Positions 37,001 through 46,000 of a DNA stretch of 64,000 nt are shown here, in pieces (position 1 is the stretch's first letter; each line of letters begins with the position of its first letter). The position numbers were made by a program, and so were the translations under genes. The notes below the pieces were generated by a model. It worked only from the letters and a program-made list of their open reading frames with translations. It had not been told where the DNA came from and did no database searches. This DNA comes from Blastobasis lacticolella (lineage: Eukaryota; Arthropoda; Insecta; Lepidoptera; Blastobasidae): NCBI GenBank assembly GCA_905147135.1, contig LR990051.1, positions 997,001-1,061,000 of the forward strand, in the 5' to 3' direction.

Positions 37001-40000
37001 TCATTCCTTTAATCGGTACCTATTGAATGACATCGAAATTAGATGCAATTACTGACCTAAAATATGTTTTAAATACAGCATAAACTACTCATCTTTTAAA
37101 TTATGGATAGTGAAAGACAGCTACGGAACCCGACGGTTCGTGTCGACTCGACCTTGCCTATCAATCCACCCCACCTTAGGAGGTAGGCCTCATGCTTACT
37201 TTTTTTCTTTCTCTAAGCTTTGTGGCCACAAATTATATTCATACAGCCATACACATTGACATGATTTCTTTTGATTTCAACAAACCTATAAATATTTAAA
37301 CCTATAAGTATTAAAACAAAGATAATTTTAGAACACTCAAATAATAGATAAACACATTTCAAACATGAGAGAACTGTAGAACAGTTACCATACTCCGCAC
37401 ATAGATGACGTTGTTAACGTGATATTGAGCGACCTCGTCAAATCGTATCTATCGAAATCTACAGATGGCGTTAGTTGCGGAACAGATCGGAAAGATTCGC
37501 CTTATGGGGCACCAACTAACAAAATAATTACGAATCTCTCGCAACTCGTCAGTGATCGATCAGTTTTGAACAAAGCCGTTTAATTATAACTTGATCCTAT
37601 AATCTATTTAACAAAAGGTATCATCTCCCAAATTCGAAGTTCGTAATTGTGGAATATTTTTCGCGTGAAATAATTTGGCCTAGGGGTCAAACTGTTACAT
37701 GACGCTGCTAACGTAATATTGTGAAACTTCGTCATAAATTCTACAGGTGGCGTTGGTTTCAATTTAGAAAGATTCGCTCTCGATGGACTCCAATTAACAA
37801 AATATTTACGAATAATATCATTTCGAAACTCTAGCAGCACGGGCGATCAGTTTTGAACGAAGCCGTTTAATTTTAACTTAATCCTATAATCTATTTAAGA
37901 AAAGGTATCGACTTCCGAACTCGAAGTACATATTTGTGGGATATTTTTCGCGTGAAATATTTTGGCCTAAGGGTCAGACTGTTACAACATGACTTGAAAA
38001 TAGGTACATTTTAATACAAGTAGTCAGCGTCGGTTCAATCAAAGGGCACACCCAAGTGTGCAGCAACCAAAACTCCGGCGTGTCGACACATGGGCCTCGT
38101 GGCGGGGTATTTCCCGCGACTTTCGGCGGGGCGCACGGGGCGGCGGGTGGCGGGAGGCGTGGCAGCAGGCAGCGCTTTAGGGATCCGCGTGTTAGGGGTC
38201 GTACTTATTTCGCATCTTATGTTCTCCTGGTAGATGCACCGTAATGTTGCAGTGGCGTGCCTAGGGTTTCAGAGTAAGGCAAGCCGAGAAATGAAGTTTT
38301 TGTAGATTTTACGGTTATTAAAAATAAATCCATCTTATTGCCACATTACTGAACAATCCTCACTTATCACTCTTCAGTTTTACATACATACATAAAGCTC
38401 ACGCCTGTGTCCCACAGGTGGGGTAGGCAGAGACTATCTTCAGTTTTATTCCAGCAATATAACTTGTGAGAGAGAATGTTGTTATTTTCTGAGCGATGTT
38501 TAAAAACTTTACCTTTTCCATGCAAATCAAAACTTGTGCACATTTTAAATCATCACAAGGGGCTTTACTTCCTCTATTGTTGATCAATCCAATTAAATCA
38601 CTTTTACTACAAAACACAACACAAACACCACAAAAAACGAATTACTTATCCGCTCAAAACAACATTGAAGTTGGTACGAATTCCAGCATTCAACAAACGT
38701 AGCGCATGCGCGAAGCTGCATCCGTGTACAACTTCATACGCATGCAGGGTTTAAAGTCTCGTACATTTTACTATATAAACAAACGTATAGTTATATCTCA
38801 TTATAGGACAGTTTTCATATGTAAGAAAGAGACATATCGGCCGAAATCGAAGCCCGCTTACAAGCCAGCGCGTGCGAGCGAGATGACTGGCCGCGTCTCA
38901 ATTCAACTCAGTCTCAACTTGCGTGTGCGTTCGGATCGTGTTTCGTAACCTACGCGCACGATGGCGCTGCTTCGCGGCGCGGCGGTGTGCACGTAGTTTG
39001 AAAAGTATTAGGAGCGCGAACTTTAAATAGTTCGCGCTCGCATTACCTTTGATTTTTGATCGATAATTATTTTTATAAGGCAAGCCCGGCTTTTGGGCTT
39101 GTATGACAGTAACGCCACTGTAATGTTGATTGTGTTTATTTAATCAAGTGAGGCTCAAACAAGTCCAACAGTGGACTAATAATAATCCTTATGATGTCGG
39201 TGATGGAATACATTTGCTTACCACTATTTTATCGGGTAATTTGTACAGACAGTAATTTCTAAAATTGTGTTTAGGTCCGTGCTTCACCTAGGTGACCTAG
39301 GTTCAGTGGCGTAGATTACCTTCCAGGGGCCCCGTATCAATAGCTGTCTGGGCCCCCCTTAGTTAGTACCCCCAACTACAAGGGATGCTAATGAGTAACT
39401 TAAATCCAAGCCATTCGCGTGTTAAGGCGGTACGATTTTCATACCATTTTTATGTAACGTTTGTGCAAATGGCTATTTGAAAATATGTTCAATTGTGCGC
39501 GAAATAGATTTCTAGATGTTAATAATGTAAAACAAAGCAATGAAAAAGAAAAATAATGAAATCACAAAACAACGCCATCAAGCGGCGATTTGTGCTTTTT
39601 TCGATTTAACTGCTTTTGAAAAGAATTCCATTTTGCGCACCATAGTAGAAATCATAATACAATCACTAAACACTCAAACAAATGAAAAAATGTCGAGAGA
39701 AATTTAGTATGGGCGTTGAATCACCTTAATAGTAAGAATAACATATGAAAGAAAGTTCCACACCGCGTCTGTTTGTCTGTTCGCGATAAACTCAAAAACT
39801 ACTGAACGGATTTTCATGCGGTTTTCACCAATAGACAAAGTGAAATCACTTTGTCTAATGAGGAAGATTTAGTTGGTAGTTTGTATGACAAGAATCTCCT
39901 TAAATCGTGGACTTAAAGGTGGACATCGGAATTTTTGTAAATTGGCCCTTGACTTTGGTTTATTAAAACCTTGTCCCGCGGCGCGTGGTACTGGGAGTGC

Positions 40001-43000: not shown

Positions 43001-46000
43001 GGAGGAGGTGCCGGAGGGCGGCTCGGCTGGGGCCGCCGCTATAGCATAGTCTCACTGTCCCCCCATCCACCCTGTCAGGCGTGTCCCGCGGCGCGTGGTC
43101 CTGGGAGTGCGTGCTGGAGGAGGTGCCGGAGGGCGCGGCCGCGCGGCTCGGCTGGGGCCGCCGCTATAGCATAGTCTCACTGTCCCCCCATCCACCCTGT
43201 CAGGCGTGTCCCGCGGCGCGTGGTACTGGGAGTGCGTGCTGGAGAAGGTGCCGGAGGGCGCGGCCGCGCGGCTCGGCTGGGGCCGCCGCTATAGCATAGT
43301 CTCACTGTCCCCCCATCCACCCTGTCAGGCGTGTCCCGCGGCGCGTGGTACTGGGAGTGCGTGCTGGAGGAGGTGCCGGAGGGCGCGGCCGCGCGGCTCG
43401 GCTGGGGCCGCCGCTATAGCATAGTCTCACTGTCCCCCCATCCACCCTGTCAGGCGTGTCCCGCGGCGCGTGGTACTGGGAGTGCGTGCTGGAGGAGGTG
43501 CCGGAGGGCGGCTCGGCTGGGGCCGCCGCTATAGCATAGTCTCACTGTCCCCCCATCCACCCTGTCAGGCGTGTCCCGCGGCGCGTGGTACTGGGAGTGC
43601 GTGCTGGAGGAGGTGCCGGAGGGCGGTTCGGCTGGGGCCGCCGCTATAGCATAGTCTCACTGTCCCCCCATCCACCCTGTCAGGCGTGTCCCGCGGCGCG
43701 TGGTACTGGGAGTGCGTGCTGGAGGAAGTGCCGGAGGGCGGCTCGGCTGGGGCCGCCGCTATAGCATAGTCTCACTGTCCCCCCATCCACCCTGTCAGGC
43801 GTGTCCCGCGGCGCGTGGTCCTGGGAGTGCGTGCTGGAGGAGGTGCCGGAGGGCGCGGCCGCGCGGCTCGGCTGGGGCCGCCGCTATAGCATAGTCTCAC
43901 TGTCCCCCCATCCACCCTGTCAGGCGTGTCCCGCGGCGCGTGGTACTGGGAGTGCGTGCTGGAGGAGGTGCCGGAGGGCGGCTCGGCTGGGGCCGCCGCT
44001 ATAGCATAGTCTCACTGTCCCCCCTTCCACCCTGTCAGGCGTGTCCCGCGGCGCGTGGTACTGGGAGTGCGTGCTGGAGGAAGTGCCGGAGGGCGGCTCG
44101 GCTGGGGCCGCCGCTATAGCATAGTCTCACTGTCCCCCCATCCACCCTGTCAGGCGTGTCCCGCGGCGCGTGGTACTGGGAGTGCGTGCTGGAGGAGGTG
44201 CCGGAGGGCGCGGCCGCGCGGCTCGGCTGGGGCCGCCGCTATAGCATAGTCTCACTGTCCCCCCATCCACCCTGTCAGGCGTGTCCCGCGGCGCGTGGTA
44301 CTGGGAGTGCGTGCTGGAGGAGGTGCCGGAGGGCGCGGCCGCGCGGCTCGGCTGGGGCCGCCGCTATAGCATAGTCTCACTGTCCCCCCATCCACCCTGT
44401 CAGGCGTGTCCCGCGGCGCGTGGTACTGGGAGTGCGTGCTGGAGGAGGTGCCGGAGGGCGGCTCGGCTGGGGCCGCCGCTATAGCATAGTCTCACTGTCC
44501 CCCCATCCACCCTGTCAGGCGTGTCCCGCGGCGCGTGGTCCTGGGAGTGCGTGCTGGAGGAGGTGCCGGAGGGCGCGGCCGCGCGGCTCGGCTGGGGCCG
44601 CCGCTATAGCATAGTCTCACTGTCCCCCCATCCACCCTGTCAGGCGTGTCCCGCGGCGCGTGGTACTGGGAGTGCGTGCTGGAGGAGGTGCCGGAGGGCG
44701 GCTCGGCTGGGGCCGACGCTATAGCATAGTCTCACTGTCCCCCCATCCACCCTGTCAGGCGTGTCCCGCGGCGCGTGGTACTGGGAGTGCGTGCTGGAGG
44801 AGGTGCCGGAGGGCGCGGCCGCGCGGCTCGGCTGGGGCCGCCGCTATAGCATAGTCTCACTGTCCCCCCATCCACCCTGTCAGGCGTGTCCCGCGGCGCG
44901 TGGTACTGGGAGTGCGTGCTGGAGGAGGTGCCGGAGGGCGCGGCCGCGCGGCTCGGCTGGGGCCGCCGCTATAGCATAGTCTCACTGTCCCCCCATCCAC
45001 CCTGTCAGGCGTGTCCCGCGGCGCGTGGTACTGGGAGTGCGTGCTGGAGGAGGTGCCGGAGGGCGCGGCCGCGCGGCTCGGCTGGGGCCGCCGCTACGCC
45101 AACCTGCAGGCGCCGCTCGGATACGACAAGTTCGGGTACTCCTGGCGCAGCCGGAAGGGGACCAAGTGAGTGATATCGTAGCTTTATTTACCACTAGATT
45201 ATAGCAAAGCGTAACTTTAATTTTTTCCAGCTTGACGTCTCTAAAAATTTCCAGCTTGGCGTCTCTAAAAAGTCCGAAGTCAGTCTCTGGTTACACCACA
45301 GTCTAGAGAAACAATCGGTAATTCATCTCGATCATGTTCTCGAAATAATTACTTTTCTACGCTCTTCCAGGGAATGGGAAAGTTGCATAGTTGTAACACT
45401 TTCCTTGCAAACTCAAATACCAGAGAGATTACTGCAGTGCTACATAGTAAATGCGGCTAGATGAGTCGTGCGCACACGCGTAGCGCCGATTTCGACCCAA
45501 TTGTTGAGTCGGCCGCTGCGAGAGTGCTACCACTAGATTCTAGATTCTGGCAAGTGAAAGCGTAAGCTGGAATTTTTTCAGCCTGACATTATTAAAAAGT
45601 CATCCGTCAGTCATCACGAAGTCAGTCTCTGGTTATACCACAGTCTAGGGAAACATTCGGCAATTAATCACGACCATGGTCGCGAAATAATTACTTTCCC
45701 ACGTTCGTCCAGAGAACGGAAAAGTTGCATAGTTTTAATAATAAAAGATCAAACCATGCACCTTCAGGCTTCATTAGACTGAGTATCATAAAGGAAAAGA
45801 GTTCTCGTCGAGGCAAAACAAACGACCCCAAACTTTATAGATATGCATCGTTTAATTTGCTGGCCACTTTCCGTCTCCAGCGTCAGATCAGATCGCTGAT
45901 ACCATAATATTACATTGCCATTTGGCTTGTATGTATAGGTATGCTAAATTTTAGTACAATCGAATAGCAGGAAATGGGTGAAATACTGTGTAAAAAAATA

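Follow-up and report, generated by a model that had tools for sequence, protein, structure and literature searches.

The stretch of DNA analysed here, referred to as the window, comprises 64,000 nucleotides of Blastobasis lacticolella (positions 997001-1061000 of one contig) and belongs to a genome of 577 Mb in 45 contigs, which was also searched and sampled. It contains the complete coding region of the gene ash2, whose intron 6 holds a tandem array of 42 partial copies of the beginning of exon 7 running directly into the intact exon. The ash2 gene model was assembled manually using homology and splice signals. The features of the locus are as follows, all on the forward strand, with a slash marking the splice junction:

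6856..52510, forward strand: ash2 coding region, 11 coding exons encoding 569 amino acids, all introns GT-AG, TGA stop codon
20409..20586, forward strand: ash2 exon 6, donor ACG/GTAAGT
20587..45008, forward strand: ash2 intron 6, 24,422 nucleotides, host of the array
39116..39973, forward strand: dispersed repeat whose interior is fused to the first array unit, with a 2-bp overlap (TG)
39972..45011, forward strand: tandem array inside intron 6, 42 units each copying part of exon 7, 21 of 115 bp and 21 of 125 bp, 13 sequence types
40083..44883, forward strand: the 41 upstream acceptors, spanning from the final intron base at the first one to that at the last; 40 read CAG/GCG and one, at 41178, reads CAAG/CG
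44884..44927, forward strand: example of a hypothetical 44-nucleotide mini-exon, ending at the weak in-unit donor GAG/GTGCCG
44972..45008, forward strand: intron-derived 37 nucleotides in the copy preceding the real exon, with branch-like CTCAC, pyrimidine tract and CAG
45009..45096, forward strand: exon-derived 88 nucleotides as they stand in the real exon, guanine plus cytosine (GC) content 0.80, containing the 12-bp palindrome GCGCGGCCGCGC
45009..45165, forward strand: intact ash2 exon 7, 157 nucleotides, donor CAA/GTGAGT
50424..50547, forward strand: ash2 exon 8

The preliminary description of this DNA had counted 42 partial exon 7 units, half of 125 bp and half of 115 bp, and this count is borne out by the spacing of an exon-start anchor, present in 43 copies at 39972-45012 (the 42 partial units and the real exon), and by Tandem Repeats Finder (TRF), which scored the array 8295 at period 125 and 8517 at period 240 with 95% and 94% matches respectively. 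The extent given there, 39971..45165, holds only in part: the array is real, but the shared sequence stops at 45096, and 45165 is the end of the exon. Each 125-bp unit consists of the last 37 nucleotides of the intron followed by the first 88 nucleotides of exon 7, and the 115-bp units differ by a deletion of 10 bp of the 12-bp palindrome GCGCGGCCGCGC that shifts the reading frame. The head-to-tail arrangement inside an intron is shared with intronic minisatellites, and the repeated segment spans the intron-exon boundary, as in a boundary-crossing duplication. A duplication of the whole exon, or a set of alternative exons, was rejected as the units lack the 3' half of exon 7 and its GTGAGT donor, which are found, as originally stated, in the last copy only.

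The units are very similar to one another, with 10 variable sites, a mean pairwise divergence of 0.69% and a maximum of 2.6% when the length difference is excluded. The commonest types account for 13 (115 bp) and 11 (125 bp) of the 42 units, and the real exon 7, which is free of the 10-bp deletion, is identical to the commonest 125-bp type across the shared stretch. A TAC to TCC change in 8 of the 42 units replaces a tyrosine that is invariant in 15 aligned proteins, while the real exon keeps TAC. Since 21 of the 42 units are frameshifted and 8 alter this tyrosine, the units are not kept as coding exons, and by the same comparison only the last copy looks constrained. The two length classes follow one another in 18 runs against 22.0 +/- 3.2 expected, a value as low being reached in 0.14 of shuffles, which is no clear departure from chance. 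With respect to higher-order block repeats, units 19 apart share their length class at a frequency of 0.78, the top of 21 lags, uncorrected, and this value is not relied on.

The left edge of the array is of a different kind. Long copies of the dispersed repeat at 39116-39973, 87-95% identical in pieces, were found in 2 of the first 20 sampled stretches of the genome (L011 and L024) and short pieces in five further ones. Both long copies continue beyond the point where the window changes into exon 7 sequence, and the left edge is therefore a join of the interior of the repeat to the interior of a unit, which explains why the first unit has no acceptor. Remnants of the array elsewhere in the window amounted to only four chance-like matches of 11-15 bp (E 1.8-6.4). 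Intron 6 also harbours a 5,545-bp direct repeat, 99.93% identical, at 23883-29427 and 32443-37987, 3 kb apart, as well as a 27-bp tandem repeat at 20598-20746 starting about 12 bp past the exon 6 donor.

The gene around the array is intact, its 11 exons giving one open frame of 569 amino acids, and on this ground an ash2 pseudogene was rejected. The exon 6-8 stretch matched ASH2 chains in the Protein Data Bank (E 1e-62). A protein search returned 730 relatives, among the best 120 of which the best named matches are moths and butterflies, headed by Spodoptera frugiperda at 86%. Fourteen of these 120, of 80-86% identity, were aligned, and none shows a gap or insertion inside exon 7, a comparison of proteins that has no bearing on introns; outside exon 7, one sequence (P0015) carries 31 inserted residues ahead of exon 6 and another (P0017) lacks some stretches. 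A second copy of ash2, which could have released this one from constraint, was considered, but a DNA search of the genome, in which only the best candidates were scored and no protein search was made, found this part of exon 7 only here. With a GC content of 0.74, exon 7 is the GC-richest of the 11 exons. It is followed by an intron of 5,258 nucleotides, which carries an 11-bp minisatellite, AGGTGTAGGGT, in 31 copies at 49300-49640 and 2.8 copies at 46908-46938, with AGGT in every copy.

Counting the real one, there are 42 acceptors, of which 41 read CAG/GCG; at 41178 the AG in register is lost and replaced by an AG one base further, giving CAAG/CG. The first unit has none on its left, which leaves 41 upstream acceptors, the same number as the units earlier said to keep a complete-looking 3' splice site. 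Over the 23 nucleotides from -20 to +3, 39 of the 41 upstream acceptors are identical to the real one, and 27 of 41 remain so from -41 to +44, in line with the competition among near-identical acceptors that had been proposed. As two of the 10 variable sites fall in the 37 intron-derived bases, which is about their share, the array acceptors seem to have received neither extra protection nor erosion.

The consequences of using an upstream acceptor were calculated by joining each one to exon 6 and letting the RNA run to the real donor, with no in-unit donor used. Under these conditions a premature stop is predicted for all 41. For 40 of them it lies 83, 203 or 218 nucleotides past the acceptor, as was previously claimed for every unit (a stop within one or two units), while from the penultimate acceptor (44883) the frame stays open to a stop in exon 9, 413 nucleotides past that acceptor; acceptor 10 was calculated in the register without the shift. 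Poison isoforms are consequently a sound prediction if the units are retained. The view of the preliminary description that any earlier acceptor would retain the downstream units is insecure, for most units contain a weak donor-like site, GAG/GTGCCG (GAA precedes the GT in 2 of 42 units and AAG in 1 of 42), which leaves another path. By a crude ungapped pairing energy against the end of U1, this site scores -5.4 and the exon 7 donor -5.1, within a range of -2.0 to -11.0 for the real donors of the gene; 6.9% of the GT sites in the window equal or beat it, and it has no match to the consensus at +4 to +6. Its use would yield 44-nucleotide mini-exons separated by introns of 71 or 81 nucleotides, and chains of 3, 6 or 39 such mini-exons are computed to stay in frame to the normal end, whereas chains of 1, 2, 40 or 41 are not. 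Recursive splicing, with CAG/GCGTGT acting as a GC donor, was disfavoured by a pairing energy of -2.8, and of 0.0 for the site formed after joining to exon 6. No protein containing a read-through of the units was found at E 0.01 in a search with 14 candidates.

The frequency of such arrays was estimated from 26 stretches of 10 kb taken from the same genome at fixed round coordinates, blind to content (257,500 non-N bases); a 27th, L034, was picked because it adjoins the gene described below and stands outside the count. TRF was run with periods up to 500, and repeats counted as arrays if they had 5 copies or more and a period no shorter than 50 bp. Two arrays were found, with GC contents of 0.65 and 0.77 compared with about 40% for the genome as judged from the first 20 stretches, while the other eight repeats with a period of at least 50 bp had at most 3 copies and GC contents of 0.26-0.48:

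L018 4395-5522 (4395-5594 with the exon), contig C9 near 5.0 Mb, reverse strand: array found by TRF in l(2)gl
L011 7416-8316, contig C2 near 5.0 Mb: GC-rich array of five 173-bp units without differences, bordered by acceptor-like and donor-like sequences

In the first of these, an intact 170-nucleotide exon (GC 0.73) with its acceptor is followed by nine copies, spaced at 113 bp, of its 3' end and donor, each copy comprising the last 98 nucleotides of the exon and 15 nucleotides of intron with GTGAGT. There are ten donors altogether, and no differences separate the nine full 113-bp units. This gene is l(2)gl, because the exon joined manually with neighbouring exons, taken from open reading frames, matches LLGL1 (E 3e-37) and LLGL2 (E 2e-36); the exon alone matches LLGL1 at E 0.003. 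Each of donors 2 to 10 is predicted to give a stop at codon 58, directly after the exon. After a tandem duplication over an exon edge, the intact exon always stands at one extreme of the array: it comes last when the acceptor is duplicated and first when the donor is. The l(2)gl array, on the donor side with the intact exon first, is the mirror image of that in ash2. The L011 array was first taken for an exon and is unconfirmed as such; a 57-bp part of it is 86% similar to L011 8832-8888, and it may be either an exon or a dispersed repeat. Neither its translation nor the l(2)gl exon alone gave any match in Pfam. In a separate stretch, L017, positions 371-897 hold three copies (98%) of a segment of 175 bp, the last running into further sequence, presumably the start of a mariner-type transposase.

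One confirmed case per 257.5 kb corresponds to 3.9 per Mb (95% interval 0.1-21.6); with two cases the density would rise to 7.8 per Mb. The extrapolation of the single case to 577 Mb, about 2,240 (57-12,485), has so wide an interval that it can serve as a guide only. The ash2 array is probably not a lone oddity in this genome. We put forward more tentatively, as a possibility somewhat short of an even chance, that the edges of GC-rich coding exons multiply here repeatedly, on the acceptor side as in ash2 and on the donor side as in l(2)gl, in which case an intact exon may be accompanied by an array of identical splice sites in hundreds to thousands of genes.

Taken together, these observations are best accommodated, with reasonable though far from firm confidence, by an array that is tolerated without a selected function, the last acceptor being favoured by exon definition. 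We infer the following course of events. A segment across the 3' splice site of the GC-richest exon of ash2, made of 37 nucleotides of intron and 88 of exon, would have been tandemly duplicated and then amplified to 42 copies via unequal exchange or replication slippage; the 10-bp deletion in the palindrome would have propagated until half of the units had it, and subsequently a rearrangement would have cut the left edge of the array into the dispersed repeat. Exon definition in the long intron would favour the last acceptor paired with the exon's own donor, and leakage to upstream acceptors would produce transcripts carrying premature stops. Such an array would be tolerated because a tandem duplication of this kind always leaves the intact exon last, beside its own donor, and the presence of the mirror-image array in l(2)gl lends support to this reading. 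The last acceptor would be expected to lead, with some leakage, since exon definition prefers splice sites that lie closest to the opposite end of the exon and the introns on either side measure 24.4 and 5.3 kb; a survey of human genes likewise describes long flanking introns as shifting choice to the site closest to the other exon boundary (PMC9225289). The preliminary description had proposed a source of poison isoforms, a splicing delay, or a neutral satellite that is tolerated since the last acceptor prevails, and the third of these readings fits best. Several points nevertheless weigh against a lead of the last acceptor. Its predicted accessibility over -20 to -1 is the lowest, 0.34 against 0.35-0.67, among the 11 of 42 acceptors folded in context, and the upstream acceptors are transcribed first. 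Furthermore, in the same survey, the upstream preference among 3' sites of equal strength between long introns is reduced and not reversed (PMC9225289).

It is unlikely, on the other hand, that the array tunes ash2, its acceptors capturing a sizeable share of the transcripts, which would meet early stops and be destroyed, with the number of units setting ASH2 output or delaying splicing. The stops predicted for every upstream acceptor, the near-complete identity of these acceptors to the real one and the fact that they are made first would all suit such a role, but the splice signals are conserved no more than the rest of the unit, and the order of the length classes is not clearly non-random. 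An artefact of assembly or library, by which the array would be absent or far shorter in the animal, seems likewise improbable. The GC richness of all three arrays and the identity of the units within the other two (9 of 9 full units in l(2)gl, 5 of 5 in L011) would be consistent with it, but in ash2 the 13 unit types are intermingled, a 10-bp length class occurs in half of the units and the left junction differs from the right, a structure hard to obtain through a repeated read or a graph loop.

A bulk gain of introns, in which each in-unit donor would be joined to the next acceptor and in-frame ASH2 repeats would arise when three or a multiple of three mini-exons were kept, is very doubtful. 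The in-unit site pairs with U1 about as well as the exon 7 donor does, some chains are open to the normal end, and a two-copy duplication in potato formed a new intron likewise (PMC4974935). The potato donor there was GTAAG, however, whereas the in-unit donor departs from the consensus at +4 to +6; an open frame is unsurprising at such a GC content (about one in two by our own estimate); other chain lengths shift the frame; and the proteins of the 14 relatives, none from Blastobasis lacticolella itself, carry no insertion at exon 7.

Studies of how a cell chooses between identical splice sites have used either a handful of competitors or site pairs surveyed transcriptome-wide (PMC9225289). The ash2 locus offers 42 near-identical acceptors and l(2)gl ten donors of one sequence, each with a single intact exon, and therefore intron definition and exon definition predict opposite, testable outcomes. 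If exon edges do multiply repeatedly, the genome would amount to a graded set of splice-site competitions set up by nature and would provide a sudden wealth of raw material from which new introns could form; survival would then depend on exon definition picking the copy nearest the other end of the exon. Should exon-edge arrays prove frequent here, they would also illustrate how introns and poison isoforms can originate in bulk, and would call for caution in annotating genes at these places.

With regard to known systems, a literature search that left most subscription papers outside it yielded no many-copy boundary array among the matches listed, and no paper on ash2, Lepidoptera and tandem repeats together. 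Arrays of the Dscam type consist of whole alternative exons, each unit having both splice sites, whereas only the last ash2 copy has the exon's 3' half and the GTGAGT donor. When Reed and Maniatis experimented with duplicated splice sites, competing 3' splice sites, few in number, were reportedly chosen by position (as described in PMC9225289); competing 3' sites are common to both cases, and in ash2 they form a naturally occurring array, 42 strong, within a long intron. The TERT intron 6 repeat VNTR6-1 is also a tandem array within an intron but reportedly has a 38-bp unit (PMC11830802), while nearly every ash2 unit, beside the exon, has an exon edge whose splice site shows no difference from the functional one. 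The UBC array is alike in that tandem units each have a splice site and many near-identical sites are able to compete. The UBC units are complete 228-nucleotide coding monomers with AGGT borders and in-frame splicing (PMC10809524), in contrast to the ash2 units, which are partial and out of frame, with lengths of 115 or 125 bp that are not multiples of three and with AG/GC borders (CAG/GCG in 41 of 42 and CAAG/CG in 1 of 42) in place of AGGT. The nearest known precedent appears to be the potato RNA-dependent RNA polymerase (RdRp) gene, in which a single tandem duplication crossing an intron-exon boundary made a new intron (PMC4974935). As in ash2, the duplicated segment begins in the last part of an intron, extends into the exon that follows and copies the branch site, the pyrimidine tract and the AG; the potato gene has two copies, a GTAAG donor and RNA reads for the new intron (PMC4974935), whereas ash2 has 42 units and the exon, and a weak donor.

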